Part shown: positions 3,617 through 21,573 of the stretch, piece by piece
How positions within the stretch are numbered: position 1 is the first letter of the stretch
Layout: each line of letters starts with the position of its first letter
Origin: a virus
DNA: 25,254 bases
IMG/VR virus record: IMGVR_UViG_3300030101_002866
Coordinates: 1-25,254 of that record
Strand: one strand, 5' to 3'
The notes under the pieces: generated by a model
Databases searched by the model: none
The model's input: the letters and a program-made list of their open reading frames with translations, nothing else
Told to the model about the DNA's origin: nothing
Position numbers and translations under genes: made by a program

Positions 3617-3642
3617 GAGCAGTGTCTTTGAAGACACCGCTC
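3617..3642 (-). repeat. Spacer hairpin with palindrome copy 2
   Basis: GTGTCTTTGAAGACAC (3622-3637) extended by GAGC/GCTC arms, giving an ~11-bp stem with one mismatch. It sits about 15 nt upstream of the ATG at 3602 and just after the stop of the amidotransferase fusion gene. On the minus strand no U-run follows, so it is not a simple terminator. The flanks (ATTAATCAG upstream, ACTGCTCATAAATC downstream) match copy 3 closely. No CUGAUGA...GAAA core is present, so it is not a ribozyme. Confidence 0.75.
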
Positions 3643-4740: not shown

Positions 4741-4770
4741 GTAGCAGTGTCTTTGAAGACACAGAACTAC
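4741..4770 (-). repeat. Leader hairpin with palindrome copy 3
   Basis: GTGTCTTTGAAGACAC at 4747-4762, framed by GTAG/CTAC arms (4741-4744 and 4767-4770). It lies in the leader between the promoter at 4791-4822 and the ATG at 4725. Sequence on both sides is nearly the same as around copy 2 (ATTAATCAG ... ACTGCT(A)CATAAATC), so the two spacers share ancestry. No ribozyme core is present. Confidence 0.75.
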
Positions 4771-4790: not shown

Positions 4791-4822
4791 CAAAGATACG
4801 ACAATAATTCGACATATCCAAA
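4791..4822 (-). promoter_or_regulatory. Bacteroidetes-type early promoter for the amidotransferase fusion
   Basis: Minus strand TTTG (4822-4819), 20-nt spacer, perfect TATCTTTG (4798-4791). The expected start is about 5-8 nt downstream, giving a ~55-nt leader that contains the palindrome hairpin. Confidence 0.78.
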
Positions 4823-4832
4823 TCTTTTTTTT

Positions 4833-4994
4833 CTATCTACTGACAACTGCAGTAAATTTTTCTCGAAGAATCCACTTGTACTTTCCGATGTTCTCGTTGT
4901 ACACTCTGTCGATTGCTTCCCATTTCGTATAAGCAGGTACGACTTTGATTTGTCGCCCTGCATACCTGACCTTAAAGTATTTCTGTCTTTCCAT
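4833..4994 (-). CDS. Small basic hypothetical protein (53 aa)
   Basis: ATG 4994 overlaps the TAA of the upstream gene by one base (TAATG), and the frame runs to TAG at 4833-4835. The product MERQKYFKVRYAGRQIKVVP...KYKWILREKFTAVVSR is Lys/Arg-rich with alternating hydrophobics, suggesting a small beta-alpha domain. It was chosen over an overlapping reading in another frame because of the start/stop coupling and its composition. Function unknown. Confidence 0.65.
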   Translation of the reverse strand: MERQKYFKVRYAGRQIKVVPAYTKWEAIDRVYNENIGKYKWILREKFTAVVSR

Positions 4995-5344
4995 TACTTC
5001 TCGTTTTGATTAACAACTTTGCCGTCTACCATTCTCTCAACTCCGATTATCTTATGTCCCTTTCGACACATATAGCTATACCAATTCTCGAAATGCTTTT
5101 CGTTGTTAAAGTCTTTGACATTGGTTCCATAGTTACCATACACAGATTTAATTGTGATGCAGTATGTTACTTTCTCTTGCGGTTTGTAGTCCAACTTGAA
5201 CTGCTCCATCTTTTCGTGGATATTCTTACCGCTATAGTCCTTGTAGTTACAAGGAAAGTCTACAAGTTTGCTATTAAAGTTTGAAGAGTAAACTTGTGTA
5301 AATGATTTGACTGCTTCATCAGTCCATTCGAATTTAGTTTCCAT
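4994..5344 (-). CDS. Hypothetical 116-aa protein downstream of a hammerhead ribozyme
   Basis: The start is ATG 5344 (METKFEWTDEAVKSFTQVYS); a longer in-frame reading would pass through the ribozyme at 5364-5427 and is rejected. The middle contains QEKVTYCITIKSVYGNYG and the end has FENWYSYMCRKGHKIIGVER. It is soluble. No family recognised. If the ribozyme cleaves, its mRNA would begin with a 25-nt leader carrying a 5'-hydroxyl. Confidence 0.68.
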   Translation of the reverse strand: METKFEWTDEAVKSFTQVYSSNFNSKLVDFPCNYKDYSGKNIHEKMEQFKLDYKPQEKVTYCITIKSVYGNYGTNVKDFNNEKHFENWYSYMCRKGHKIIGVERMVDGKVVNQNEK

Positions 5345-5363
5345 ATTTTTGTTTTTAATGTTT

Positions 5364-5427
5364 GACATAGAGAGCAGTGTCTTTGAAGACACCACCCTTT
5401 CGTTCATTGAGAACTCATCAGTATGCC
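5364..5427 (-). ncRNA. Type I hammerhead ribozyme (HHR3), palindrome copy 4 as stem III
   Basis: Read on the minus strand from 5427: stem I strand GGCAUA, core CUGAUGA (5421-5415), stem II GUUC-UCAAU-GAAC (perfect 4 bp), core GAAA (5401-5398), a long stem III in which GGGUGGUGUCUU pairs through AAGACACUGCUCU around a CA loop (13 bp counting A15.1-U16.1, with three G-U pairs), C17, then UAUGUC pairing back to GGCAUA (6 bp, one G-U). All invariant core nucleotides are present. Predicted cleavage is after C17, between 5370 and 5369. The 5' end overlaps the TAG of the TM-protein gene and cleavage would lie 25 nt before ATG 5344. Confidence 0.85.
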
Positions 5428-5648
5428 TACGCTCTATCTTCTTTCCACACTGCGATATTTATGAGTAGTAAAAACCAACCAATTACTAAACAAAATATAC
5501 TCGTTGCTGAGGCATAAGTGAACTCAACGAAACTAAAATACTCTGCATTGTTTTTCCATATGTCAATTAGAACTCTAAGAGCCATTGAATAAACGAATAG
5601 TGTTACGATGTTAAGTGTTACATTTTGAATGTTGTTAAATGTCTTCAT
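5427..5648 (-). CDS. Two-TM membrane protein (73 aa)
   Basis: Two hydrophobic helices are visible: about residues 9-30 (VTLNIVTLFVYSMALRVLID) and 46-68 (ASATSIFCLVIGWFLLLINI), separated by a short polar loop NNAEYFSFVE and ending in charged WKEDRA. It is likely an inner-membrane protein. It sits between the amidoligase gene and HHR3, with HHR2 in its 5' leader. Function unknown; it could anchor or assist an envelope-acting pathway encoded by its neighbours. Confidence 0.68.
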   Translation of the reverse strand: MKTFNNIQNVTLNIVTLFVYSMALRVLIDIWKNNAEYFSFVEFTYASATSIFCLVIGWFLLLINIAVWKEDRA

Positions 5649-5672
5649 TTTATTAAAATTTAAATTTGTTAA

Positions 5673-5724
5673 TCTGTTTCGACCTTTCGGTCATCATCAG
5701 GATAGGCACACACCTATCGACAGA
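5673..5724 (-). ncRNA. Type III hammerhead ribozyme (HHR2)
   Basis: Minus strand from 5724: stem III strand UCUG, U16.1, C17, then stem I GAUAGG-UGUGUG-CCUAUC (6 bp), core CUGAUGA (5700-5694), one extra U, stem II GACC-GAAA-GGUC (4 bp, GAAA tetraloop), core GAAA (5680-5677), and CAGA closing stem III with UCUG. Predicted cleavage is between 5719 and 5718, after GUC. Stem III is open, so the ribozyme body would stay on the 70-nt leader of the TM-protein gene (ATG 5648). The only departure from the textbook fold is one unpaired base between A9 and stem II. Confidence 0.85.
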
Positions 5725-5760
5725 AAGCAGTTTTACATCTTGCTTAGGATGAGATAGAAC

Positions 5761-6759
5761 TCAGAAATAAAACTCTTCTTTGAACTTTCTTACATCAGTG
5801 TATTCGTTTGGTGTGTAACCTCTCTTGTAACACCCTCTACGACCACCAAACTGATAGGTTAACTCTCTATCATTACTCCACCATCCCTCAAACCATCCGA
5901 CCATCTCTAAGTCCATCTTACTACCATTGATGACTTTCTGCATCTTCTTAGCTAAAGCAATAGTCTTTGCAACTTTCTCAGCATCGTTGTTGAACATCGA
6001 TAATAAGATTGGCTTTACTGCATTACAGAAATGGTGTAGTGATGAATTTTGCTTGTTCACTGCGAAATCAATCAACTGATAAAAGAACTCGTATCTGCGA
6101 ATCGTTTGCTTCACTGATGTGAATCTTGATGGAACTCTGAACTCTACAACTCCATCGCCATCTAAAGTTTTGTAGTTAGCAATCGTGTACTTTGTACTCC
6201 ACTCTGCAGATGTGTCCATAGTGATGTTACCTCTGCAAAAGTAATTGTTCACTCTGTGTCTGTAGATGGCATAAACTAAACCACTGAACTTCTTCATTCT
6301 GTCAGATAACTCTCTACCACTCATATCCTTAACTCCCAATGTAATGTGACCACCACATTTTCTGTTAGATGGGCTGAACTCATCGTTAATTATTTTCTTA
6401 GCTTGGTGGAACATATTGAACACTTTCGTTCTCCACATTGATTTGTCTACCAATGGTAAGATGTGAGTAACTGCCTCAGCACCACAACTACCATCGTGTT
6501 CAAATCCACATAACAGAGGATACTCTTGAACTGCACTCCTATGAAATCTGTTCTTCTCGAACTCCATTCCGATTGTGAATATACTTGAAAAATCATCAGC
6601 CACATTTACTCTTGCACTACTCGGTAGACCATTGATGTCCACTGCTTCTGCTTTGTTCAGTTTGTATGGATGTGGCTTACTTCCATAGCTTGAGATTCTA
6701 CCTCTTGAAGACTCGTTGTGAATCTCGAACTGAACTCCTTGTTGATTTAAATTTCTCAT
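5761..6759 (-). CDS. Putative COOH-NH2 amidoligase (glutamine-synthetase-like fold), 332 aa
   Basis: Signature segments in order: TIGMEFEKNR (Glu66/Glu68 region), CGFEHDGSCGAEAVTHILPL at 84-103, KCGGHITLG at 134-142 and DGVVEFRVPSR near residues 200-212. The set GxExE, DGSxxxEAVT, CGxHhxxG and VEFR is what is seen in the ATP-dependent amidoligases with a GS-like fold that join amines to carboxylates. Those enzymes are known to occur beside GAT-II and GGCT/AIG2 proteins, as here. The substrate could be a peptide, the cell wall or a protein tail. Flanked 5' by HHR1 and 3' by HHR2. Confidence 0.78.
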   Translation of the reverse strand: MRNLNQQGVQFEIHNESSRGRISSYGSKPHPYKLNKAEAVDINGLPSSARVNVADDFSSIFTIGMEFEKNRFHRSAVQEYPLLCGFEHDGSCGAEAVTHILPLVDKSMWRTKVFNMFHQAKKIINDEFSPSNRKCGGHITLGVKDMSGRELSDRMKKFSGLVYAIYRHRVNNYFCRGNITMDTSAEWSTKYTIANYKTLDGDGVVEFRVPSRFTSVKQTIRRYEFFYQLIDFAVNKQNSSLHHFCNAVKPILLSMFNNDAEKVAKTIALAKKMQKVINGSKMDLEMVGWFEGWWSNDRELTYQFGGRRGCYKRGYTPNEYTDVRKFKEEFYF

Positions 6760-6783
6760 TTTAAATTTAATTTTTGTTGGTTT

Positions 6784-6835
6784 TCTGTTTCGTCCTTTCG
6801 GTACTCATCAGCACAGACACTCATCTGTGGACAGA
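6784..6835 (-). ncRNA. Type III hammerhead ribozyme (HHR1)
   Basis: Minus strand from 6835: stem III strand UCUG, U16.1, C17, stem I CACAG-AUGAGUGU-CUGUG (5 bp), core CUGAUGA (6811-6805), stem II GUACC-GAAA-GGAC (four pairs with one bulged A), core GAAA (6791-6788), then CAGA pairing with UCUG. Predicted cleavage is between 6830 and 6829 after GUC, 70 nt upstream of the amidoligase ATG at 6759. From CUGAUGA to the closing CAGA it matches HHR2 at nearly every position, and the one stem II change differs together with its partner, while the stem I sequences differ. This is the pattern expected of two functional relatives. Confidence 0.85.
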
Positions 6836-6861
6836 GGATAGTGTCTTTGAAGACACTACCC
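6836..6861 (-). repeat. Hairpin with palindrome copy 5, abutting HHR1
   Basis: GTGTCTTTGAAGACAC at 6841-6856 extended to a 12-bp stem (GGAUA/UACCC side with one G-U pair). It ends exactly where the stem III strand of HHR1 begins. On the minus strand it is preceded by CAAAGGGTAG, close to the CGAAAGGGTGG of HHR3, suggesting it derives from the same type I stem III. After HHR1 cleavage it would lie a few bases from the new 3' end of the upstream mRNA. Confidence 0.8.
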
Positions 6862-6869
6862 TTTGTGAT

Positions 6870-7496
6870 TTAGATTTCTCTTGCTATATCTCTCATAGTG
6901 TTAAACATTTTCATCAGAGATTCATCGATGTCGATTTCTAACTCACCATTGATTGAGATTCCGCTCTCACTAAGTCTTACAGAGTAACCCTTTTCCCCAT
7001 TTACACCATCCTTAGCGATGCTGAATGTAGCATAAGTTTTCTCTCTTGCAACTTCGTTATCCTCTGTACCGCTCTCTTCGTTCTTAGCATACTTCAGTAA
7101 CGCTTCGATACTTCTCTGTACATCTTCGCCATTATTCTCTGCTCTTGTACACTCTCTCTTGAACTTCGTTACCACAGATGATTGCTCTATCTGTAGCTTA
7201 CCCGCTTTGTTCATCTTGTAACCGAATGACTTCTGCCATCCGAATACTCTGTTGAAGAATACTTCGGTATTGTTCCATTCGATACCCTCATCTTCTAACT
7301 GAGTCTTTGTCTCAGCTTTGTTAAACCATTCTAACGATTGGCTAACTAACTTCGCTAACTTCAGTGATTTGTCGAACTTGTTCTTCTTCGCATCAGATAC
7401 TTCAGTGATTAGATTCTCGATTGTAGCAAAGTTTACTTGGCTACGAACTGATGGCAGTGCTAAAAAGTCTGCCTCGATTTGCATTAAATTTCTCAT
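6870..7496 (-). CDS. Hypothetical 208-aa protein, first gene of the ribozyme-containing operon
   Basis: Helical N-terminal two thirds (AKKNKFDKSLKLAKLVSQSL, EWNNTEVFFNRVFGWQKSFG, VVTKFKRECTRAENNG, RSIEALLKYAKNEE) and a beta-rich C-terminal part (YATFSIAKDG, YSVRLSESGISING, ELEIDIDES). No family recognised. The N-terminus MRNLMQ resembles that of the amidoligase (MRNLNQ), and both start regions share ATGAGAAATTTAA. It is driven by the promoter at 7558-7588 through a ~55-nt leader with a small GAGGA/TCCTC hairpin. Confidence 0.7.
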   Translation of the reverse strand: MRNLMQIEADFLALPSVRSQVNFATIENLITEVSDAKKNKFDKSLKLAKLVSQSLEWFNKAETKTQLEDEGIEWNNTEVFFNRVFGWQKSFGYKMNKAGKLQIEQSSVVTKFKRECTRAENNGEDVQRSIEALLKYAKNEESGTEDNEVAREKTYATFSIAKDGVNGEKGYSVRLSESGISINGELEIDIDESLMKMFNTMRDIAREI

Positions 7497-7557: not shown

Positions 7558-7588
7558 TAAATATAGTCTATTTCATTGAATTACCAAA
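7558..7588 (-). promoter_or_regulatory. Bacteroidetes-type early promoter, rightmost on the minus strand
   Basis: Minus strand TTTG (7588-7585), 19-nt spacer, TATATTTA (7565-7558), the same -7 variant as the promoter at 1191-1222. It lies about 62 nt upstream of ATG 7496 and would start the mRNA that contains all three hammerheads. Confidence 0.65.
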
Positions 7589-8665: not shown

Positions 8666-10267
8666 ATGCAACAAGGATTCACTCCGAAAGAACTTCACTT
8701 TTCTGATGAAGGTAGAACCAAACTCATTAGTGGTATAAATAAAATAGCTGCCGCAGTAAAATCAACTTTAGGTCCAAGAGGTAACACAGTGCTTATTGAA
8801 TCACCGGAACACCTTCACGGTATAACCGTAACTAAGGATGGTGTAACAGTGGCTAAATCTATTTCATTATTAGACCCGGTTGAGAACCTTGCGGTTAGGA
8901 TGATGAAAGAGGCAGCAGACAGAACTGCTTCCGCAGCCGGTGATGGAACAACAACCGCTATTGTATTAGCTGAAGCATTAGTTAATGCAGGAACCGAATT
9001 GATTGACGACAATCGAACCGAAGTGTTAAGACACATTGTAGAAGAAACCAAACAGATATCGAAGTCGCTAAAAGTAAAAGGTAAGAAACTTGATTCCAAA
9101 AGACTTCGTGATGTAGCTATTATATCTGCGAATAATGACAAGCAGATTGGAGACATCATTGCTGATGTATATGAAAGCGTAGGTAGTGATGGTGTAGTTA
9201 CAGTAGAAAAAAGTAAAACCTCATCTACTTATTATGAAACCACAAAAGGTATCAAAGTAAAAAGAGGATATGCCTCCAACCTATTTATCAATGACCAAAA
9301 GCGTGATGAGTGTGTCTTCGAAGACACTTATGTATTGGTTTGTGATACAGAGATAAATAACATCTTACAAATAGAGAACATCTTGAAACCAATTATCAAT
9401 GAAGGTAAAAAATTATTAATGATTGCTCATTGCTCACAGAATGTAACAAATACATTAGCAGCTAATGTAATTAAGAACGGATTAAAAATTTGTACAATAC
9501 AACCACCTGACTTTGGATATAGACAACACGAGCTGATGCAGGATATCGCAGTTAGCGTGGGTGCAAAGTATTTCAGCGAGAAAACAGGCGATGACTTGAG
9601 TTTGATTAATTTCAACGATTTGGGTCACTGTGCTAAGGTGATAGTTAGCCGGGACTCAACGGTCATCGTTAAAGATGATAATGAAACATCTGAAGAAGTA
9701 AAAGAAAGAGTAACACAACTTCAAGAAGCTCATAAAAATACTAAGCAGAAAGAAGATAAAGAATTTATAAACCAACGTATAGCTTCGCTATCAGGCGGTA
9801 TAGGTGTGGTATATGTGGGAGGTAATACAGACCTTGAACAAAAAGAACTGTATGATAGAGTGGATGATGCGGTATGTGCAGTTCGCTCTGCACTTGAAGA
9901 AGGTATACTACCCGGAGGTGGATTATCACTATATAATTTTCATAAAAGCTATACAGTAAAAGAAGCAGGAGAAAAAGACTACGCAAAAAAAACTGCTTAC
10001 GCAGTTTTAGCTGAAGCGTTAAAGTCACCACTTTATCAGATATTAGAAAATGCAGGATTAGATGCTGATAGAGTTTACGATGATTGCAAAGGAGCACTTT
10101 ACGGTTACGATGTAAAAAAAGAAAAGTACGGTTACCTGATGACACTCGGAGTCATAGACCCCGTGAAAGTCACAAGACAAGCACTGCAGAATGCAGTATC
10201 AGTAGCGGTTACTATTTTATCAACCAATGCTATCGTGACTATGGCACGTAGCTATGAAACAAAATAA
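8666..10267 (+). CDS. groEL: GroEL-like chaperonin (Cpn60), 533 aa
   Basis: Full-length group I chaperonin that folds proteins in an ATP-driven ring with a Cpn10 lid. ATP-site motifs are intact: TLGPRG (34-39), TKDGVTVAK with Asp58 (E. coli Asp52), GDGTTTA (92-98), RVDDAV with Asp401 (Asp398), EEGILPGGG (E. coli EEGVVAGGG) and IDPVKVTR with Asp498 (Asp495). The apical domain is recognisable (RGYASNLFIN; PDFGYRQ where bacteria have PGFGDRR). The C-terminus ends ARSYETK and lacks the GGM-repeat tail. It starts at ATG 8666 behind a good promoter. The next gene overlaps the stop (TAATG). It probably folds a phage virion protein or replaces host GroEL. Confidence 0.93.
   Translation: MQQGFTPKELHFSDEGRTKLISGINKIAAAVKSTLGPRGNTVLIESPEHLHGITVTKDGVTVAKSISLLDPVENLAVRMMKEAADRTASAAGDGTTTAIVLAEALVNAGTELIDDNRTEVLRHIVEETKQISKSLKVKGKKLDSKRLRDVAIISANNDKQIGDIIADVYESVGSDGVVTVEKSKTSSTYYETTKGIKVKRGYASNLFINDQKRDECVFEDTYVLVCDTEINNILQIENILKPIINEGKKLLMIAHCSQNVTNTLAANVIKNGLKICTIQPPDFGYRQHELMQDIAVSVGAKYFSEKTGDDLSLINFNDLGHCAKVIVSRDSTVIVKDDNETSEEVKERVTQLQEAHKNTKQKEDKEFINQRIASLSGGIGVVYVGGNTDLEQKELYDRVDDAVCAVRSALEEGILPGGGLSLYNFHKSYTVKEAGEKDYAKKTAYAVLAEALKSPLYQILENAGLDADRVYDDCKGALYGYDVKKEKYGYLMTLGVIDPVKVTRQALQNAVSVAVTILSTNAIVTMARSYETK
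9312..9327. repeat. 16-bp palindrome copy 7 (inside groEL)
   Basis: GTGTCTTCGAAGACAC, here a perfect 16-bp palindrome, encoding V-F-E-D-T in the apical domain. It differs from the main form by one centre base. Confidence 0.75.
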
Positions 10268-10509
10268 TGGATAGTCATTGGAGATATAATAACTACTTAA
10301 CTAAAGAACAGAAAATTGATTTTAATTTAATGATAGTCAAGAAGACACCTATCGATGAGATTTGTAAAAAGTATAAAGTATCTAAAAGGTTTGTTAAATA
10401 TAAGTCTTTGAAATACTCAACTCCTACTATCCCTATTTATTTGGGAAGTAAACAAGAGCCATACTATTCTGATGAAATGATGTATGGTAAGTTAAACTTA
10501 AATTTGTAA
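10267..10509 (+). CDS. Small HTH-like protein (80 aa)
   Basis: ATG overlaps the groEL stop (TAATG). Residues about 11-46 (LTKEQKIDFNLMIVKKTPID, then EICKKYKVSKRFVKYK) look like a helix-turn-helix of the resolvase/sigma-like kind: an I-x-x-I-C-x-K-Y-x-V-S recognition helix. The rest is a Tyr-rich tail. It could regulate the chaperonin operon, but no operator match can be shown. Confidence 0.65.
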   Translation: MDSHWRYNNYLTKEQKIDFNLMIVKKTPIDEICKKYKVSKRFVKYKSLKYSTPTIPIYLGSKQEPYYSDEMMYGKLNLNL

Positions 10510-10510
10510 T

Positions 10511-10660
10511 ATGGAATATGCAATAGAAAGTCCTGTATTCGATGCGTTTAGACAAAACGAAAAAAAAATCAAAGAGGCAATAACATTCCTCAGAGAAAAT
10601 GATTATGTTGTCTACAAACAAGGAGAATATAAAAAAGATGAGACAGAGAAAGCTAAATAA
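10511..10660 (+). CDS. Small hypothetical protein (49 aa)
   Basis: ATG one base after the previous stop (TAATATG), TAA at 10658-10660. MEYAIESPVFDAFRQNEKKI then KEAITFLRENDYVVYKQGEY is a plausible helix-helix peptide with a charged end. Function unknown. It sits between the HTH gene and groES. Confidence 0.6.
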   Translation: MEYAIESPVFDAFRQNEKKIKEAITFLRENDYVVYKQGEYKKDETEKAK

Positions 10661-10790
10661 TGGAATCATAAAACATTTAGCAAAGTTGTTTCCTAACAAT
10701 CAAGAGTTAGGAGCAGAGATAAGAAAAAGAATAGTTAATGAAAGCAATAGGGAAAAACGTAGTAATACAAAAGATAGAGGAAGAGGTTAA
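10638..10790 (+). CDS. Small basic hypothetical protein (50 aa)
   Basis: I take the start at ATG 10638, overlapping the preceding stop region. MRQRKLNNGIIKHLAKLFPN then NQELGAEIRKRIVNES reads like a genuine amphipathic helical protein. The last ~17 codons overlap the groES start out of frame and are Arg/Lys-rich and low in complexity. It fills what would otherwise be a 77-nt gap. Confidence 0.5.
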   Translation: MRQRKLNNGIIKHLAKLFPNNQELGAEIRKRIVNESNREKRSNTKDRGRG

Positions 10791-10995
10791 AACCGAAAGC
10801 GGTTTGTTGTTATCCAATGAGGATGCAAAATCTTTTAGATATCAAAAAGGTAAAATTATTTTACCCGGTTCTGAATGTTGTGATTTAAAAAAAGACGACA
10901 TTGTTTACTATGATACTCGAAACTCTTACACCTTAATAATCAATAGTGATAATGTCACGATTATTCAAGAGAGAGATGTCGTTGTTGTCTTATAA
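10738..10995 (+). CDS. groES: GroES-like co-chaperonin (Cpn10), 85 aa
   Basis: MKAIGKNVVIQKIEEEVKTE with ESGLLLS at 20-26, which fits the flexible GroEL-binding mobile loop (SGG-I/V-L in bacteria), then KGKIILPGSE (the G-x-V-x-x-V-G-x-G segment), LKKDDIVYYDTR (VKVGDxVLF) and VTIIQERDVVVVL (xLRExDILAxh). The length is close to bacterial GroES (~95). It lies in the same transcription unit as GroEL but downstream of it, the reverse of bacterial groES-groEL order. Its 3' end overlaps a convergent regulator by 35 nt. Confidence 0.88.
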   Translation: MKAIGKNVVIQKIEEEVKTESGLLLSNEDAKSFRYQKGKIILPGSECCDLKKDDIVYYDTRNSYTLIINSDNVTIIQERDVVVVL

Positions 10996-11395
10996 ACTCA
11001 TTCATTTTAATTATCGCATTTCGATACCTTCTATCCGAATAAGATACATTCTTTAAAAACATAGGATTCTGAGAAGGTGACGTAGGCATCTCTTCGCCAT
11101 TTAGTTTCTTATAGATTGAAGTTATAACTCTTTTAGACTTGTACGATAAGTTGTACAAACCTTTTGTCTTTCCTTTTCTTTTTCTAAATACTTCAATCCA
11201 TCCATCACGCAACAGTTTATTGAATCTGTTTTCGTCCCAAGACAATATTTTGTCGAACTCTTCAAATTTATCTTTTGAAAAATAGCTTTCAGAGTTTAAG
11301 AAAAGAATCACATCTAAATCCGACTGTGTGAGACCATACTTTACTTTAATGTATTGGCGTATGATTCTCCAATATTTTAGGTAGTCGTTGTTCAA
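10961..11395 (-). CDS. Winged-helix/MarR-like transcription regulator (144 aa)
   Basis: The only leftward protein gene in the late half. Predicted helices followed by a wing: KYWRIIRQYIKVKYGLTQSD, VILFLNSESYFSKDKFEEFD, WDENRFNKLLRDGWIEVFRK then RKGKTKGLYNLSYKSKRVIT. This matches a MarR-type fold (ILxxL...F....ELxKxLxWDxxRxxxLxxxGWI..hR.....K..LYxLSxKGKxxV). The start is a TTG at 11395, as no in-frame ATG precedes it. It shares a divergent promoter with the late genes and converges on groES, so it may control both. Confidence 0.72.
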   Translation of the reverse strand: MNNDYLKYWRIIRQYIKVKYGLTQSDLDVILFLNSESYFSKDKFEEFDKILSWDENRFNKLLRDGWIEVFRKRKGKTKGLYNLSYKSKRVITSIYKKLNGEEMPTSPSQNPMFLKNVSYSDRRYRNAIIKMNEFIRQQRHLSLE

Positions 11396-11416
11396 AATAC
11401 AATGAATTAAATTTAT

Positions 11417-11434
11417 TAACTTTGTACAAAAGTA
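11417..11434. promoter_or_regulatory. Overlapping divergent -7 boxes around a 10-bp palindrome
   Basis: The plus strand has TAACTTTG (11417-11424), 17 nt before ATG 11441. The minus strand has TACTTTTG (11434-11427), 32 nt before the regulator TTG start. Between and across them lies TTTGTACAAA (11421-11430), a perfect palindrome. One bound regulator could block both promoters. Confidence 0.65.
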
Positions 11435-11440
11435 ATAATT

Positions 11441-11617
11441 ATGCCTGACAAGTTAGATTTTAATAGCACGTCTTTCAAAAATTCCCAAGCAGCTAAGATT
11501 GTAAAGAACAAGCCAAACTCGTATGGGAGCAGAAAAAAGAAATCTAAAAACCCTACAGGGATTTTAGGATTATCTTTCTTAAATCCTAAAAAGGGAAGAT
11601 TTGGAAGTTACTCGTGA
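11441..11617 (+). CDS. Small basic hypothetical protein (58 aa)
   Basis: First gene of the late unit. It begins MPDKLDFNSTSFKNSQAAKI and continues with a Lys-rich stretch (RKKKSKNPTGILGLSFL) to PKKGRFGSYS. The opening is acidic/polar, the rest basic. No family recognised. Its TGA overlaps a GTG start for the next reading frame. Confidence 0.65.
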   Translation: MPDKLDFNSTSFKNSQAAKIVKNKPNSYGSRKKKSKNPTGILGLSFLNPKKGRFGSYS

Positions 11618-11751
11618 GAAAAGACAAATGGCTCATAGAGCAATATAATCGAAACAGGTTACCTAAAGATTGGGTATATACAATAAAAGAATTATGGCAA
11701 AAAAGGGAAGAGCTAAAAAGAAAGGAAACAAAATCTGTCCGGCAGGAATAG
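11614..11751 (+). CDS. Possible overlapping small protein with GTG start (45 aa)
   Basis: Frame opens with GTG overlapping the previous stop (GTGA) and runs to TAG at 11749-11751. It encodes VRKDKWLIEQYNRNRLPKDW then VYTIKELWQKREELKRKE, a plausible helical basic protein. Its last 58 nt are shared out of frame with the next gene. The first 80 nt would otherwise be non-coding in a module with almost no gaps. Confidence 0.4.
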   Translation: MRKDKWLIEQYNRNRLPKDWVYTIKELWQKREELKRKETKSVRQE

Positions 11752-11861
11752 CTTGGGCGAAAAGAACCTTTGATACTTACCCTTCAGCTTATGCTAATAT
11801 GGCGGCAAGTAAATATTGCAAAGACCCTAACTATGCTAAAGGAGCTAAAAAGAAAAAGTAA
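11694..11861 (+). CDS. Small Lys-rich Cys-containing phage protein (55 aa)
   Basis: ATG 11694 is preferred to an upstream TTG. Sequence: basic start MAKKGRAKKKGNKICPAGIA, then WAKRTFDTYPSAYANMAASK and YCKDPNYAKGAKKKK. The segment CPAGIAWAKRTFDTYPSAYANMAA is of a type seen repeatedly in marine phage genomes among late small genes. Two Cys residues and a Lys-rich composition suggest nucleic-acid binding or a virion component. Function unproven. Confidence 0.72.
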   Translation: MAKKGRAKKKGNKICPAGIAWAKRTFDTYPSAYANMAASKYCKDPNYAKGAKKKK

Positions 11862-11980
11862 TGGACGCAAAAAAATTAAAAGAAATTTCAAGTCAATTAA
11901 AAAAAGCATCTGCTATGCATAAAGCACAAGCGGGTAAGATTGATAGATTAATTAAGTCAATGTCAAAGAAAAAGAAATGA
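11861..11980 (+). CDS. Very small Lys-rich protein (39 aa)
   Basis: TAATG coupling with the previous gene and ATGA coupling with the next. MDAKKLKEISSQLKKASAMH then KAQAGKIDRLIKSMSKKKK is one long amphipathic basic helix. Too short for family assignment, but the coupling on both sides supports it. Confidence 0.6.
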   Translation: MDAKKLKEISSQLKKASAMHKAQAGKIDRLIKSMSKKKK

Positions 11981-12093
11981 GCAAGTTAAGTAAAGCACAG
12001 AGAAAAATTGCAAGAGCTGCTATGCCTTTTGATAAGATTACAAAAGCAGATTTTGACGTATTGAAGAAACGTAAAAAAAATAAAAATAAATAG
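11977..12093 (+). CDS. Very small basic phage protein (38 aa)
   Basis: MSKLSKAQRKIARAAMPFDK followed by ITKADFDVLKKRKKNKNK. The pattern LSxxQRKIAxAAxPxDKITxADFxxLKxxK is one I recognise from many marine phages, always as a tiny gene in a basic-protein cluster. Function unknown. Confidence 0.68.
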   Translation: MSKLSKAQRKIARAAMPFDKITKADFDVLKKRKKNKNK

Positions 12094-12095
12094 TT

Positions 12096-12251
12096 ATGCC
12101 AACAGTTAGTTATAAGTGTGCAAACACAGGAAAAATGAAAAAACAAACTTTCCCTTACAATGCAGTAGGTAAAGCTCAGGCAGTTGAGTTTGCTAAAACA
12201 ATGGGGGGAAAAATTAAAAACAATCCAAATAGATATTCAGACGGATACTAA
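12096..12251 (+). CDS. Small hypothetical protein (51 aa)
   Basis: MPTVSYKCANTGKMKKQTFP, YNAVGKAQAVEFAKTMGGKI, then NNPNRYSDGY. It has one cysteine and a beta-beta-alpha-looking layout, similar to tiny phage proteins that carry a K-M-K-K-x-F-P-Y-x-x-x-G-K motif. ATG is 2 nt after the previous stop. Confidence 0.65.
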   Translation: MPTVSYKCANTGKMKKQTFPYNAVGKAQAVEFAKTMGGKIKNNPNRYSDGY

Positions 12252-12253
12252 AA

Positions 12254-12508
12254 ATGGGTGAGTTAAAAAAATGGAGAGAAGAGAAGTGGGTTCGCATAGG
12301 AACTGATGGTTCTATCAAAGGTGCTTGTGGGACAAGTAAAAATAAAAAGAATCCCGACAGGTGTTTACCTTTGAAGAAAGCTCAATCTATGACAAAAGCG
12401 GAGAGAGCGAGAACCGCAAGAAAAAAGAAACGTGCCGGAGCACGAGGTAAAACAGTTGTAGCTAATACTAAAGCAGGAAGAGTTACAAAAAAATACACTA
12501 AGAGGTAA
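12254..12508 (+). CDS. Lys/Arg-rich protein with CGTS...DRCLP motif (84 aa)
   Basis: N-terminal part MGELKKWREEKWVRIGTDGS then IKGACGTSKNKKNPDRCLPL with two Cys, followed by KKAQSMTKAERARTARKKKR and a basic tail. The WVRI...GxIxGxCGTSKxKKNPDRCLPxxKAQSxTKAERA pattern is widespread in marine phages and some algal viruses. The combination of a two-Cys knuckle and a very basic tail suggests binding to packaged DNA, but this is inferred. Confidence 0.74.
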   Translation: MGELKKWREEKWVRIGTDGSIKGACGTSKNKKNPDRCLPLKKAQSMTKAERARTARKKKRAGARGKTVVANTKAGRVTKKYTKR

Positions 12509-12798
12509 TGGCGGATAAATCTAAAATGAAATGCAATGTCGTTGTACGAAGTGATAGAGCGGGTAAAAAGAAAATGGTTAAAGCCTGTGAAGGAGGAAAA
12601 GAAAAACTCATTCATTTTGGAGCAAAAGGATATGGACATAATTATTCACGAGCTGCGAGAAAGAGCTTCAAGGCACGTCATAAGTGTGGAACCGCAAAAT
12701 CAAAACTAACTGCAAGATATTGGGCGTGTAAAAAATTATGGGCAGGAGCAGGTGGCTCAACCAAATCAAGTCCGAAAAATAGACAAGGAAAATATTAG
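12508..12798 (+). CDS. Small basic phage protein with IHFGAKGY and RARH-type motif (96 aa)
   Basis: Starts with a one-base overlap of the previous stop. Contains EKLIHFGAKGYGHNYS, then AARKSFKARHKCGTAKSKLT and ARYWACKKLWAGAGG. The IHFGxxGY...RxxFxARHxC...T..YWxCKxLW signature is a common small virion-region protein in phages. It has five Cys including a CKARHKC-like spacing that might bind metal. Promoter box at 12799 follows directly. Confidence 0.72.
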   Translation: MADKSKMKCNVVVRSDRAGKKKMVKACEGGKEKLIHFGAKGYGHNYSRAARKSFKARHKCGTAKSKLTARYWACKKLWAGAGGSTKSSPKNRQGKY

Positions 12799-12806
12799 TA
12801 TCTTTG
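12788..12806 (+). promoter_or_regulatory. Late-type promoter GAAAAT-N5-TATCTTTG
   Basis: TATCTTTG at 12799-12806 followed by TAAC, preceded by GAAAAT (12788-12793). There is no -33 TTTG. It begins in the last codons of the previous gene, 20 nt before ATG 12827. The same layout occurs at 16652-16671 and 24021-24041. Confidence 0.6.
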
Positions 12807-12826
12807 TAACATAAATACATACTGTT

Positions 12827-13021
12827 ATGGCTAAAAAGAAAAAAGACGATATTATGATTAAAGAATCCAATCAAGGAAAGTTTACTAATTGGGTCAAAAA
12901 AAATATGCCGGGTAAATCTACCTGTGCGGCTGCATCAGCAGTATTGAAAAGTAAAACCAAGTATAAACCAAACGTAGTCAAAATGGCGAACTTCGCTAAT
13001 AACTTTGGCTGCAAAAAATAA
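12827..13021 (+). CDS. Small basic Cys-containing protein (64 aa)
   Basis: Basic start MAKKKKDDIMIKESNQGKFT, then NWVKKNMPGKSTCAAASAVL and VVKMANFANNFGCKK. Two Cys 28 residues apart. The KFTxWVKKNMPGKSTCxAAxAVL...VVKMANFAxNFGxKK form is familiar from marine phage late regions. Likely virion-associated or DNA-binding; unproven. Confidence 0.68.
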   Translation: MAKKKKDDIMIKESNQGKFTNWVKKNMPGKSTCAAASAVLKSKTKYKPNVVKMANFANNFGCKK

Positions 13022-13027
13022 TTTAAA

Positions 13028-13234
13028 ATGAAACAAGGTTATAATGACAGACTTGATGAGTCTATTGGAATGAAGCACAAAGGACCAAAATCTCAGTCTA
13101 TGAAAAGTAGAAGAGATGAGTCAAAGGGAATGGCTAAAGCTATGACAGGTCACGCTTATAGTGGAGACCACCATATGGATAAGCACTACCCTAAAAGTGT
13201 AAAAGGTCATTTAGACAAACTTATCAAAAAGTAA
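13028..13234 (+). CDS. Small His/Lys-rich protein with DESxGM repeats (68 aa)
   Basis: MKQGYNDRLDESIGMKHKGP and SMKSRRDESKGMAKAM share an R-x-DES-x-GM motif in tandem. The end HAYSGDHHMDKHYPKS is His-rich. The R(K/R)DESKGM motif is common in small phage proteins of this neighbourhood. Charge pattern suggests a structural or DNA-contacting peptide. Confidence 0.66.
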   Translation: MKQGYNDRLDESIGMKHKGPKSQSMKSRRDESKGMAKAMTGHAYSGDHHMDKHYPKSVKGHLDKLIKK

Positions 13235-13235
13235 G

Positions 13236-13376
13236 ATGGGTAAGTGGTTAGTTAAAATCGGATTATGGATGCAACGGGCGTGGAAGAAACTTCTATGCAA
13301 GTGGAATTGGCTAATTTCTAAATTGATTATAGAAGTGGACGAATGTCCGGTTGCACAATGTATGTGTAAGAAATGA
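13236..13376 (+). CDS. Small Trp-rich Cys protein (46 aa)
   Basis: MGKWLVKIGLWMQRAWKKLL then CKWNWLISKLIIEVDECPVA and QCMCKK. It has five Trp and an amphipathic basic helix that could associate with membrane, followed by ECPVAQCMC (three Cys in 7 residues). ATGA coupling with the next gene supports expression. No family recognised. Confidence 0.6.
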   Translation: MGKWLVKIGLWMQRAWKKLLCKWNWLISKLIIEVDECPVAQCMCKK

Positions 13377-16925: not shown

Positions 16926-18290
16926 ATGGCTAAAATTTCTACATATATCATTGATAGTACACCCCAACTAACTGACAAAGTTATTGGAACTGATGTAAAC
17001 GATAATGACATAACCAAAAATTATCTAATTGGTGATATTGTAGCTTTAGTCCCATCCCCAACTTTGTCTCCAACAAAAATGTTTTATGGAGACGCTGCTT
17101 CTTTAGCTGCTGAAACCTCAACACTAACATACATAGTAGGGGGTTCAGGTATAGTTGCAGAAGATACTGTTGTAATGAGCGGTACTCTATTGGCTGATGT
17201 ATGTAGCATTAACAGTGTTACATCTGTATTGGTTGGTAAAAGAGTTCTTTCACAACAAAGTGGAATTGCAAATTCAGTGGCTATTGGACAAGACATTTGT
17301 GATTCAGGAGCTAATAATTGTGTAGACAATGTATTGATTGGAAAAGAAATGTTATCTGCAGCCGCAGACTCATTTACAAAAAATGTATTGATTGGAAGTA
17401 AAGTATTAAATCAATCGTCACAACAAATTGATTCTAACACTGTAATTGGATATGAAGCAGGTCAAGCATTAGACGTACCTCTTTCTGCTAACATATTTAT
17501 TGGTGAGGAAGCTGCTAAACTTGGTGGTCTTAGTGGACAGAATTTAACTACTAACATTGCTATAGGGCAACAAGCCGCATTAAATTTAGGTAATTCAGGT
17601 AACAATGCACCAACAAATAACATTGCTATTGGTACTAATGCAGGTAAAGCAAACAGTGGTAATAACAATATTCATATAGGAACCAATAGCGGAGTATCAG
17701 CTAACTTAGGATTCTTTAATGTAGGGTTAGGTGCTAATGCTTTAACGAGTCAAGTTGGCGGAGACTTTAATGTGGCTATAGGTAATGATGCTTTAGAACA
17801 ATTACAAACCGGAACTACTAATACTGCGGTTGGGAAAGCTGCAGGTTCAACAGTAGTAGGATTTACTAATACTACCAACTTAGGTCATAACTCTCAAGCA
17901 CAAGCAGACAATGAAGTTGTTTTAGGAGATAATAATGTAACAACACTTAGATGTAATACACAAGTTATTTCAGGTCTTTCAGATTTAAGAGACAAGGATA
18001 ATATTGAAGATTTGTCTTTAGGGTTAGAGTTTATTATGGATTTAGACCCTGTGACTTGGGATTGGGATAGAAGAGATGGTTCAATGGAGGGTAAAAAAGA
18101 CTCAGGTTTTGTAGCTCAAGAAATAGATGAAGTTGTTTCACAGTGGGAAGCTGAAGAAATCTTACCAACATTAGTAAACAAAAATAATCCTGATGCTTGG
18201 GAAGTTGGTAATGCAGCTTTGATACCTGTATTAGTAAAAGCTATACAAGAATTAAAAGCAGAACTTGACGCTTGTAAAGCGGAAAAGTAA
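16926..18290 (+). CDS. Tail fibre with YadA-like repeats and S74 intramolecular chaperone domain (454 aa)
   Basis: N-terminal attachment segment MAKISTYIIDSTPQLTDKVI then VNDNDITKNYLIGDIVALVP, typical of flavobacterial phage fibres. Residues about 110-340 are a repeated trimeric-autotransporter-like motif (NVLIGKEML, NIAIGQQAA, NIAIGTNAG, VAIGNDALE, AVGKAAG). The C-terminus is a peptidase S74 (endosialidase chaperone) domain: SDLRDKDNI with the self-cleavage pair Ser352/Lys357, SGFVAQEIDEV, and LIPVLVKAIQELKAEL as the terminal coiled coil. The domain helps trimerise the fibre and then cuts itself off before Ser352. Confidence 0.88.
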   Translation: MAKISTYIIDSTPQLTDKVIGTDVNDNDITKNYLIGDIVALVPSPTLSPTKMFYGDAASLAAETSTLTYIVGGSGIVAEDTVVMSGTLLADVCSINSVTSVLVGKRVLSQQSGIANSVAIGQDICDSGANNCVDNVLIGKEMLSAAADSFTKNVLIGSKVLNQSSQQIDSNTVIGYEAGQALDVPLSANIFIGEEAAKLGGLSGQNLTTNIAIGQQAALNLGNSGNNAPTNNIAIGTNAGKANSGNNNIHIGTNSGVSANLGFFNVGLGANALTSQVGGDFNVAIGNDALEQLQTGTTNTAVGKAAGSTVVGFTNTTNLGHNSQAQADNEVVLGDNNVTTLRCNTQVISGLSDLRDKDNIEDLSLGLEFIMDLDPVTWDWDRRDGSMEGKKDSGFVAQEIDEVVSQWEAEEILPTLVNKNNPDAWEVGNAALIPVLVKAIQELKAELDACKAEK

Positions 18291-18529: not shown

Positions 18530-19092
18530 TGAAATCTATTTATCAGTTTATAGTTAGTCCTGTAAATAACAAGCGATATAACAACACTAAAAAAGTTGGT
18601 GATGTTGATTTAGTTATAAGTACGTCAGAAGAAAATCATACTACATCAAATCGTGAAGCAACGGTTATTGAGACTCCAATCAACTATAAGGGTCCTATTG
18701 AAAAAGGAGACACATTATTAGTACACCACAATGTTTTCAAGTTCTACAATGATATGTACGGCAAGAGACAAAGTGGAAGGAGCTTTCTCAAGGAGAATGT
18801 TTTTCTTATAGACAGTGAACAGTTTTTTGCTTATAAGAAAGACGGGGAATGGAATGGATATGACAGGTATTGTTTTTTAAAACCTGTTCCGGTAGAAGAA
18901 AGTTATATTTACAAACCCTTCAGTACAGAGCCTTTGATGGGAGAAGTAGTAATAATTAATCAAGGTTTAAAAGACAAAGGCGTAAAGGTTGGTGACAAAG
19001 TGTGTTACAAACCAAATCAAGAGTATCAATTTAAAGTGGACGACCAAACTCTATATAGATTGTATGACCACTGTATTACTTTAATTTTATGA
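18529..19092 (+). CDS. GroES-fold-like protein with two Cpn10-type halves (187 aa)
   Basis: The C-terminal half (114-187) reads like Cpn10: YCFLKPV (DRVLVKP), MGEVVIINQGLKDKGVKVGD (G-x-V-x-x-x-G...VKVGDxV), then FKVDDQTLYRLYDHCITLIL (xDGxxYxxLxExDILxxh). The N-terminal half (1-105) repeats the order: YQFIVSP, REATVIETP (44-50), IEKGDTLLVHHNVF (58-70), and VFLIDSEQFFAYK (91-103). So this looks like a tandem or swollen GroES-like protein. It may work with the viral GroEL or host GroEL like T4 gp31, or use the fold structurally. The call is by pattern; remote homology needs a profile search. Confidence 0.6.
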   Translation: MKSIYQFIVSPVNNKRYNNTKKVGDVDLVISTSEENHTTSNREATVIETPINYKGPIEKGDTLLVHHNVFKFYNDMYGKRQSGRSFLKENVFLIDSEQFFAYKKDGEWNGYDRYCFLKPVPVEESYIYKPFSTEPLMGEVVIINQGLKDKGVKVGDKVCYKPNQEYQFKVDDQTLYRLYDHCITLIL

Positions 19093-19364: not shown

Positions 19365-21573
19365 CATATTATACAAAGTTGTAAAAGACTATGTTCCTAA
19401 GAATGTTTTATCGAATAAAAATCGTAATCATTCTTGGTTGTATGGTTACAATGATAAGTACGATTTAATTGTTATTTCTAAGTCAGGTCAAATAGGAGAG
19501 ATACTATATATTTCAGGTCTTTACATAGCTTTACCGAAAGAACCTAAAGAGTGTCTTCAAAGACACTCCACCTCATCAGAACAATATTGGGAAAGGCAAG
19601 AGTTACCAAAACCTTTGAGTAAGATATCATCCATCTTTCAGTGGAATGAAATGCCATCTGAATTTAAATCAAGATGGGTGGATTATATAGAAGCTGAGTT
19701 TGACAACAGAGAGTTTGGTTTTTGGTTTATGAATAAAAGTAAACCAACTTACATTACAGGAGCTCACTATATGTATTTACAGTGGACTAATATTGATGTA
19801 GGATATCCTGAATACAGAGAAGCAAACAGAATATTATATATATTTTGGGAAGCATGTAAAGCAGACAAGAGAAGTTTTGGAATGATATATCTAAAGATTA
19901 GACGTTCAGGATTTTCTTTTATGTCTTCTTCTGAATGCGTCAACACAGGAACACTTGTAAAAGATTCTCGAGTTGGTATACTTTCTAAAACAGGTTCTGA
20001 TGCTAAGAAAATGTTTACAGATAAAGTTGTTCCAATTAACAGTAGACTTCCATTCTTTTTTAAACCAATTATGGATGGAATGGATAAACCTAAAACTGAA
20101 TTAGCTTATCGTGTACCTGCATCTAAGATTACCAAAAAGAATATGTATGATGTGGAGGAGGATGAAATAGAAGGGTTAGATACCACAATAGATTGGAAAA
20201 ATACAGATGACAACTCATATGATGGTGAAAAACTTCTGCTATTAGTTCACGATGAAAGTGGAAAATGGTTAAAACCAAATAACATATTAAATAATTGGCG
20301 TGTTACAAAAACTTGTTTACGATTAGGTAGTAGGATTATTGGTAAATGTATGATGGGTTCTACATCAAATGCTTTAGCAAAAGGTGGGGGAAACTTCAAG
20401 CAATTATTTTATGACTCTGATGTAATGAAGCGTAATGCAAACGGTCAAACAAAAACAGGATTGTATTCTTTATTTATTCCAATGGAATGGAATATGGAGG
20501 GGTTTATTGATAGGTATGGTCAACCCGTAATAGACGATGTGGTTGATAAAGTAAGGGGTATAGATGATGAGTATATAACACAGAGTGCGTTACAGTATTG
20601 GAATAACGAGGTAGAGTCATTAAAGCACGACCCTGATGCGTTGAATGAATATTATAGACAGTTTCCAAGAACAGAGTCTCACGCATTTAGAGATGAAAGT
20701 AAACAATCATTATTTAATCTTACTAAGATATATCAACAGATTGATTATAATGATGCAATGATTTCAGAACAACATTTAACAAGAGGTTCTTTTCATTGGG
20801 TTAACGGAATCAAAGATACTTCAGTTTATTTTACACCCGACAAAAGAGGAAGATTTATTATTACTTGGGTTCCGACCAAAGGAATCCAAAACAATATCTA
20901 TACCAAAAATGGTAAGAGATATCCCGGTAATGAACACATAGGTGCTTTTGGATGTGACTCATATGATATTAGTGGAACAGTAGGTGGTAAAGGTTCTAAT
21001 GGTGCACTACACGGACTTACTAAGTTTAGTATGGAAGAAGCACCAAGCAATGAGTTTTTTTTAGAATACATAGCAAGACCACAAACCGCAGAGATATTTT
21101 TTGAAGATGTTTTAATGGCTTGTGTATTTTATGGTATGCCAATACTTATAGAGAACAACAAGCCACGATTGTTATATCATTTCAAAAATAGAGGGTATAG
21201 AGGTTTCTGTATGAATCGTCCCGATAAACAATTTATCAAGCTATCAAAAAGTGAAAAAGAATTAGGAGGTATACCGAACTCAAGCGAAGATGTAAAACAA
21301 GCACACGCAGCAGCTATTGAATCCTACATAGAATCACACGTAGGATTATCACAAGATGGAGATATGAAATCAATGTATTTCAATCGTACATTAGAAGATT
21401 GGGCAAGGTTTGATATTAACAACAGAACTCAGTATGATGCTTCTATTAGCTCCGGATTAGCTATAATGGCGTGTCAAAAGCATTTATATATGCCTGAAAA
21501 AAAAGAGTCAAGAATTATGATTAACTTTGCAAGGTATACTAACGAGGGAAAATTAAGTCAGATAATTAGATGA
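19342..21573 (+). CDS. terL: Terminase large subunit (TerL), 743 aa
   Basis: DNA-packaging motor ATPase plus nuclease. An adenine/Walker A-like segment is KIRRSGFSFMSSSECV (the R-x-x-G-x-S variant), Walker B is LLLLVHDESGKW with Asp304-Glu305, and the coupling motif is MGSTSNALAKGG. The nuclease part has GAFGCDSYDISGT with metal ligand Asp539, PILIENNKPRLLYHF, and a C-terminal DVKQAHAAAIESYI region. The start is TTG 19342; no ATG occurs in frame for the first ~100 codons, and the frame is closed upstream at 19324. A palindrome copy lies at 19551-19566 inside it. Length fits the long TerL proteins of crAss-like and related Bacteroidetes phages. Confidence 0.9.
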   Translation: MQNEGQNSILYKVVKDYVPKNVLSNKNRNHSWLYGYNDKYDLIVISKSGQIGEILYISGLYIALPKEPKECLQRHSTSSEQYWERQELPKPLSKISSIFQWNEMPSEFKSRWVDYIEAEFDNREFGFWFMNKSKPTYITGAHYMYLQWTNIDVGYPEYREANRILYIFWEACKADKRSFGMIYLKIRRSGFSFMSSSECVNTGTLVKDSRVGILSKTGSDAKKMFTDKVVPINSRLPFFFKPIMDGMDKPKTELAYRVPASKITKKNMYDVEEDEIEGLDTTIDWKNTDDNSYDGEKLLLLVHDESGKWLKPNNILNNWRVTKTCLRLGSRIIGKCMMGSTSNALAKGGGNFKQLFYDSDVMKRNANGQTKTGLYSLFIPMEWNMEGFIDRYGQPVIDDVVDKVRGIDDEYITQSALQYWNNEVESLKHDPDALNEYYRQFPRTESHAFRDESKQSLFNLTKIYQQIDYNDAMISEQHLTRGSFHWVNGIKDTSVYFTPDKRGRFIITWVPTKGIQNNIYTKNGKRYPGNEHIGAFGCDSYDISGTVGGKGSNGALHGLTKFSMEEAPSNEFFLEYIARPQTAEIFFEDVLMACVFYGMPILIENNKPRLLYHFKNRGYRGFCMNRPDKQFIKLSKSEKELGGIPNSSEDVKQAHAAAIESYIESHVGLSQDGDMKSMYFNRTLEDWARFDINNRTQYDASISSGLAIMACQKHLYMPEKKESRIMINFARYTNEGKLSQIIR
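19549..19568. repeat. Palindrome copy 8 (inside terL), 20 bp
   Basis: GAGTGTCTTCAAAGACACTC: the 16-bp core in the opposite orientation to most copies, extended by two base pairs on each side, coding K-E-C-L-Q-R-H-S. Confidence 0.75.

Follow-up and report, generated by a model that had tools for sequence, protein, structure and literature searches.

Hammerhead ribozymes in consecutive spacers of a phage operon: a comparative case for the cutting of polycistronic RNA into single-gene messages

Hammerhead ribozymes (HHRs) clustered around single genes were described in prophages by Perreault et al. (2011; PMC3088659), who proposed that long phage transcripts are processed to single-gene mRNAs and reported that a triple HHR arrangement was cleaved in vitro and in E. 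coli, and that HHRs of A. tumefaciens cleave polycistronic RNA in E. coli. In 2011 it was still unsettled what hammerheads do in bacteria and phages. The phage locus described here resembles those arrangements in having multiple HHRs round single genes or short gene blocks and leads to the same single-gene mRNA proposal; thus the idea of a ribozyme series as gene separators in a phage operon, which the original prediction took to be undescribed, is not new. As far as the accessible portions of PMC3088659 go, a flush stem-loop, a stop-codon overlap, promoter avoidance and a tRNA-like substitute are found only here, and the words "stem-loop" and "terminator" are absent from its main text. Moreover, the gene identities in that work are not constant, whereas in our clade of phages of about 60 kb the sites keep the same neighbouring genes.

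Two systems built on other cutters are also close. In the cip-cel operon of Clostridium cellulolyticum (PMC4423207), selective RNA processing and stabilization likewise cuts a polycistronic RNA in its spacers, with stem-loops at the new 3' ends setting relative transcript amounts; the sites were mapped by RNA sequencing, and the abstract describes no built-in ribozyme. In contrast, the cutter in our locus is part of the RNA itself, and an effect on transcript amounts would be presumptive. As for RNase P, which cuts polycistronic operon mRNAs (Li and Altman, 2003, cited in PMC11143913), punctuation by tRNAs would mean that a tRNA-like fold between genes marks the cut. This fits minihelices that we found in relatives, though the window uses HHRs and the minihelices are not called as tRNAs. 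Finally, the Rfam families Hammerhead_3 (RF00008) and Hammerhead_1 (RF00163) share the core, the three stems and the cut site with the elements described here, which differ in being short forms that mostly score below the Rfam cut-offs.

The window, by which we mean the whole stretch of DNA analysed, is a viral record of 25,254 bases. The terminase shares 74% identity with that of MW202828 and about 45% with those of Flavobacterium elemo phages, which makes this a podovirus-like phage, probably of Bacteroidota. On the minus strand, a promoter is followed by the 208-aa gene, HHR1, the 332-aa gene, HHR2, the TM protein gene, HHR3 and the 116-aa gene (Table 1). The original prediction had put three hammerheads in these consecutive spacers, and the core pattern, a structural scanner and covariance models all located them there; what it had overlooked was that HHR3 belongs to a different permutation, that stem-loops lie flush with the elements, and that relatives carry tRNA-like substitutes.

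Table 1. Features of the operon region, copies of the genome-wide palindrome, and tRNA-like minihelices of relatives. Positions are those of the window unless a relative is named.
Feature	Position	Strand	Remarks
Promoter, Bacteroidota-type -33/-7 (TTTG ... TATATTTA)	7558-7588	-	consensus match only; start of transcription unit
208-aa gene	6870-7496	-	conserved among relatives
Stem-loop GGGTAGTGTCTTCAAAGACACTATCC, flush with HHR1	6836-6861	-	MFE -19.8, z -6.5 (50 nt preceding cut)
HHR1, type III hammerhead	6784-6835	-	predicted cut 6830/6829
332-aa gene, distant glutamine synthetase/amidoligase-like fold	5761-6759	-	AlphaFold2 and Foldseek
H-type pseudoknot, putative, preceding HHR2	5725-5751	-	6-sequence comparison
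HHR2, type III hammerhead, extra U between core and stem II	5673-5724	-	predicted cut 5719/5718
TM protein gene, 73 aa	5427-5648	-	relatives found; last base of stop codon is first base of HHR3
HHR3, type I hammerhead	5364-5427	-	predicted cut 5370/5369; orthologue in L012
HHR3 stem III hairpin, 12 bp	5371-5398	-	includes genome-wide repeat GTGTCTTCAAAGACAC
116-aa gene, downstream of HHR3	4994-5343	-	leader 26 nt from predicted cut
Promoter-like motif, next after 7558-7588	4791-4822	-	spacer without HHR
Palindrome GTGTCTTCAAAGACAC	1696-1711, 3622-3637, 4747-4762, 5377-5392, 6841-6856	-	exact repeat
Palindrome GTGTCTTCAAAGACAC	19551-19566	+	exact repeat
Minihelix	L031 10880-10922		acceptor-like stem and T arm
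Minihelix	L034 3104-3148		acceptor-like stem and T arm
Minihelix	L042 11098-11142		acceptor-like stem and T arm
Minihelix	L088 9902-9943		acceptor-like stem and T arm
Minihelix	L153 5969-6011		acceptor-like stem and T arm; others besides these five

The core pattern CTGANGA-N-CGAAA has three matches in the window, all of them at HHR1-3, with 0.27 expected by shuffling (five matches were reached in none of 100 shuffles). The core elements CUGANGA and GAAA are conserved in all three, as are U16.1 and H17 at the cut. According to the structural scanner, which covered all three hammerhead permutations, stems I, II and III measure 7, 4 and 5 bp in both HHR1 and HHR2, and 6, 4 and 12 bp in HHR3. The predicted cut of the type I element lies at its 3' end, and those of the two type III elements lie near their 5' ends. 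Stem I of HHR3 is formed by GGCATA pairing with TATGTC, its first G being the final base of the TM stop codon TAG, and ribosomes terminating at that codon could unfold the ribozyme. Minimum-energy folding alone did not cleanly recover the type I fold of HHR3. Two further scanner matches, at 25041 (plus) and 19564 (minus), were set aside as chance, their stems being weak or oddly spaced and lying within genes. We also noticed an ATG at 5407, inside HHR3, that opens a longer frame of 137 aa, sharing the phase of the 116-aa gene. Cutting at the predicted HHR3 site would take off this ATG and leave the one at 5343.

At its curated cut-offs Rfam reported no HHR in the window, and we therefore built covariance models of our own from the type III and type I alignments of relatives. 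These gave 64.6 bits (E 1.5e-19) for HHR1 and 63.9 bits (E 2.6e-19) for HHR2, both outside the training set, and 62.6 bits (E 7.9e-16) for HHR3, itself in the training set. Rfam listed HHR1 alone, at 35.7 bits against a curated cut-off of 48.5, with HHR2 and HHR3 unlisted, and it matched just one of seven related loci. Since our models R1 and R2 score strongly, we take the low Rfam scores to reflect limited sensitivity. Most of these elements escape standard Rfam annotation, and so they are probably far commoner than recorded. The extra U beside the HHR2 core may slow cleavage, as may a U-U mismatch that replaces the usual G-C as the first pair of stem II (CTGATGATACCAAAAGGTTGAAAC) in a variant that recurs in several relatives (L002, L005, L012, L074, L085, L112, L149 and L155).

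Relatives were fetched using the operon proteins as queries. Among them, the scanner counted 167 HHRs of type I or III on the operon strand, compared with 2 on the opposite strand, in 69 of 92 sequence clusters, with 10 loose matches in the reversed sequences of the same loci. Compensatory changes occur in 14 of the 17 pairs of the type III alignment (66 sequences) and in 12 of the 14 pairs of the type I alignment (24 sequences), the respective covariation being 0.71 and 0.97 against at most 0.14 and 0.15 in slid controls; the core columns are invariant in A5. These alignments indicate that the three stems round the hammerhead core are kept by compensatory change. In the spacer 3' of the 332-aa gene, an HHR core is present in 58 of 76 relatives (control 0) and missing in the other 18, some of which lack any recognisable cutter at this place. 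L012, the closest relative (protein 78% identical), has three HHRs of identical types and order. HHR2 is kept in L001, L002 and L005, the latter two also having a type III element downstream of the TM gene. In these three phages HHR1 is missing at the matching spacer of about 36 nt, and cutting at the HHR1 spacer is thus not essential. Like the window, relatives have several HHRs between co-directional phage genes. Among 48 relatives with whole records of about 61 kb, we counted 105 HHRs in 41 genomes, and wherever a genome has at least two they all fall within 4.8 kb; HHRs therefore mark one operon region and not the whole genome.

Absence from some relatives, together with a mutated core in L053, is what one would expect if the HHRs were chance or decayed motifs without function, a reading whose probability we put close to nil in view of the covariation, the 58 of 76 loci with a core against none in the control, and the shuffling control. 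In L053 itself, the spacer after the 332-aa gene retains intact HHR stems around a changed core (CTGATGT), and this copy is perhaps decaying or inactive.

With respect to transcription signals, the promoter that the original prediction placed at 7558-7588 does have a -33/-7 motif by consensus match, and its remark that the HHR spacers are promoter-free is supported, in that the window's three contain no -33/-7 promoter and those of relatives have the motif at chance level. More specifically, the Bacteroidota -7 motif TAnnTTTG is present in 4 of 107 HHR spacers, where shuffling predicts 4.5, and in 72 of the 267 spacers without HHR, where it predicts 22.5 (Fisher p 3e-8). The window's further promoters, at 4822-4791, 2297 and 1222, are all in spacers without HHR. 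Sigma-70 promoters were not found in the three HHR spacers of the window, nor were terminator-like sites (a G+C-rich hairpin with a U run) on the minus strand there.

The placement of the elements within their spacers is regular. Typically, about 36 nt separate the stop codon from the start of a type III HHR, and about 22 nt separate its end from the following ATG. Of the 38 type I elements, 20 have the upstream stop codon inside the 5' strand of stem I or sharing a base with it, and the most frequent distance from cut to ATG is 22 nt. An upstream hairpin of at least 7 bp accompanies 113 of the 127 type III HHRs (random windows have one in 18%), and in 93 of the 127 cases the gap between hairpin and the inner 4 bp of stem III is 0-1 nt. 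For the 50 nt preceding the type III cut, the mean z is -3.9, with 94% below -1.5, against a mean of -1.15 and 33% in the control, the first 50 nt of same-strand spacers without HHR. In type I elements the closing hairpin is stem III itself, and HHR2 and its relatives have a putative pseudoknot upstream instead of a stem-loop, with all nine pairs formed across six sequences and compensatory change in four of the pairs. From these hairpins, stem III and the pseudoknot it follows that nearly every cut upstream message would end directly behind a folded element, which at the predicted processed 3' ends is a stem-loop and at HHR2 the pseudoknot.

Comparison across the clade (conservation, stem-loops, promoter avoidance and tRNA-like substitutes) supports the splitting of a polycistronic RNA that the original prediction had put forward, and we think it quite probable that the hammerheads divide such an RNA into single-gene messages. 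The three spacers would then be RNA-processing sites. One RNA would run from about 7550 through the 208-aa, amidoligase-fold, TM and 116-aa genes, and each hammerhead would cut it in its own spacer. The products would be pieces of about 720, 1110 and 350 nt and the remainder of the RNA, each cut leaving a 5'-OH and a 2',3'-cyclic phosphate end. The upstream message would end behind the stem-loop at HHR1, the pseudoknot at HHR2 and stem III at HHR3, and this folded element would presumably protect the 3' end. With such protection every gene would have a separate mRNA half-life while needing neither a promoter nor a terminator to itself, and the genes could be differentially expressed.

The same geometry bears on a different reading, which we consider possible but rather doubtful, namely that the ribozymes mainly shape the downstream leader by removing upstream RNA for the ribosome to start, the stem-loop serving only to insulate folding by stacking on the short open stem III. 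The gap of 0-1 nt is ideal for stacking, type I elements with their closed stem III need no separate hairpin, and a 22-nt leader is the commonest outcome of a type I cut. However, a type III cut leaves about 70 nt and two hairpins on the downstream message, unlike leader cleaning, and the same stem-loop often precedes the tRNA-like elements, in which there is no open stem III. It is also conceivable, although very unlikely, that paired cuts release a fragment whose 5'-OH and 2',3'-cyclic phosphate ends are joined to a circular RNA in a retrozyme-like manner. These ends suit RtcB-type ligation or back-ligation and single genes are indeed flanked by HHRs, the clearest case being the TM-gene segment between HHR2 and HHR3, but the flanking HHRs are often of different type and not repeats, many phages have a single HHR, and Perreault et al. 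sought spliced or circular products and found none (PMC3088659).

The flush stem-loop of HHR1 and stem III of HHR3 both contain a 16-nt palindrome, GTGTCTTCAAAGACAC, with six exact copies in the window, some inside genes. Many related phages have it as well, with as many as about 13 copies in a genome and 0 in the reversed control, and other phages have a covaried palindrome of their own, such as GTGTCGTTAACGACAC with 14 copies in MW202828. Within spacers its orientation follows transcription (150 versus 33), and within genes it is without such bias (82 versus 76). The notion that the palindrome is a remnant of a type I HHR was rejected by its genome-wide spread. That spread, including copies in both orientations within genes, would suit palindromic hairpins that are DNA operators or dispersed repeats along which HHRs were carried as passengers. 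We hold this to be highly improbable, as the HHRs have covarying stems, keep to a single strand and can follow unrelated hairpins too, and as in whole genomes the HHRs are confined to one operon region, whereas the palindrome is everywhere.

A further point in favour of intergenic cutting comes from the 18 relatives without an HHR core after the 332-aa gene, about half of which have a tRNA-like minihelix there. It consists of an acceptor-like stem, a short linker in which GGT is frequent, and a T arm whose loop is TTCGANT, without D and anticodon arms; the acceptor-like stem is a perfect 7 bp in, for example, L031, L034, L042, L046 and L080. Such a stem accompanies 26 T arms of the operon strand against 3.7 expected with shuffled flanks (opposite strand, 4 against 3.05), about 5 of these 26 resembling the 3' halves of real tRNAs. 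ARAGORN called no tRNA in the ten loci tested. In many minihelices the palindromic stem-loop stands directly 5' of the acceptor-like stem, and in 13 of 30 a hairpin of at least 6 bp ends no more than 5 nt away. Moreover, L088 combines a minihelix at the HHR1 position with an HHR at the HHR2 position. The minihelices are possibly minimal RNase P substrates, for which a cut would be expected at the 5' side of the acceptor-like stem, and in these spacers the RNase P of the cell would take the role that the HHR has elsewhere. Another structured element (CCTCCTGTCAGAAACGGCAGGGGGATTTGGTGGTAGAAAC and a varied version) occupies the HHR2 place in L040 and L070.

A conserved design in about 70 phage groups, in which the ribozyme has apparently been swapped for a tRNA-like element occupying an equivalent position, is strong comparative evidence for intergenic mRNA cutting as its purpose. 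Beyond this, we regard it as an evenly balanced possibility that the clade of Bacteroidota phages uses a general mRNA punctuation, a protective stem-loop flush with an interchangeable cutter (a type III HHR, a type I HHR placed at the stop codon, or a minimal, tRNA-like substrate of RNase P), which would replace promoters and terminators and give each gene of the operon its own mRNA. Such modules could serve as operon-building parts. Checked against the open-access literature, what is new is the clade-wide conservation, the stem-loop and cutter module, the interchangeable cutters, the promoter avoidance, and the HHRs in two cultured phages; the module with its interchangeable cutter and its clade-wide use go beyond the descriptions found there. 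The two cultured members, Flavobacterium phage elemoB_14-3B (type III at 19025-19079, type I at 17213-17270) and Cellulophaga phage phi19:3 (type I around 21769-21817), make the proposal directly testable. Our models had no match in the cultured phage phi38:1, Tenacibaculum phage Gundel_1, the crAss-like cr10_1 or MW202828.

Regarding the encoded proteins, searches of Pfam and PHROGs with the 208-aa protein returned no match. For the 332-aa protein, Pfam likewise gave no match and PDB sequence searches no firm result. In Foldseek searches, its AlphaFold2 model (mean pLDDT 85) resembles glutamine synthetase, PafA (the Pup ligase) and phage proteins that bear the name amidoligase; the matches are weak against the PDB (TM about 0.3, E 1e-4) and somewhat better against viral models. 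Judged from these fold matches, the name amidoligase in the original prediction is plausible, yet the relationship would be a distant one.

A pattern scan of viral contigs showed HHRs in 77 of 80 stretches among the matches listed, many of them outside the clade, and phage HHRs are thus common. In one unrelated viral contig of 66.6 kb (L187), seven type I HHRs lie within about 4.6 kb (8690-13240, minus), an array longer than that of the window.
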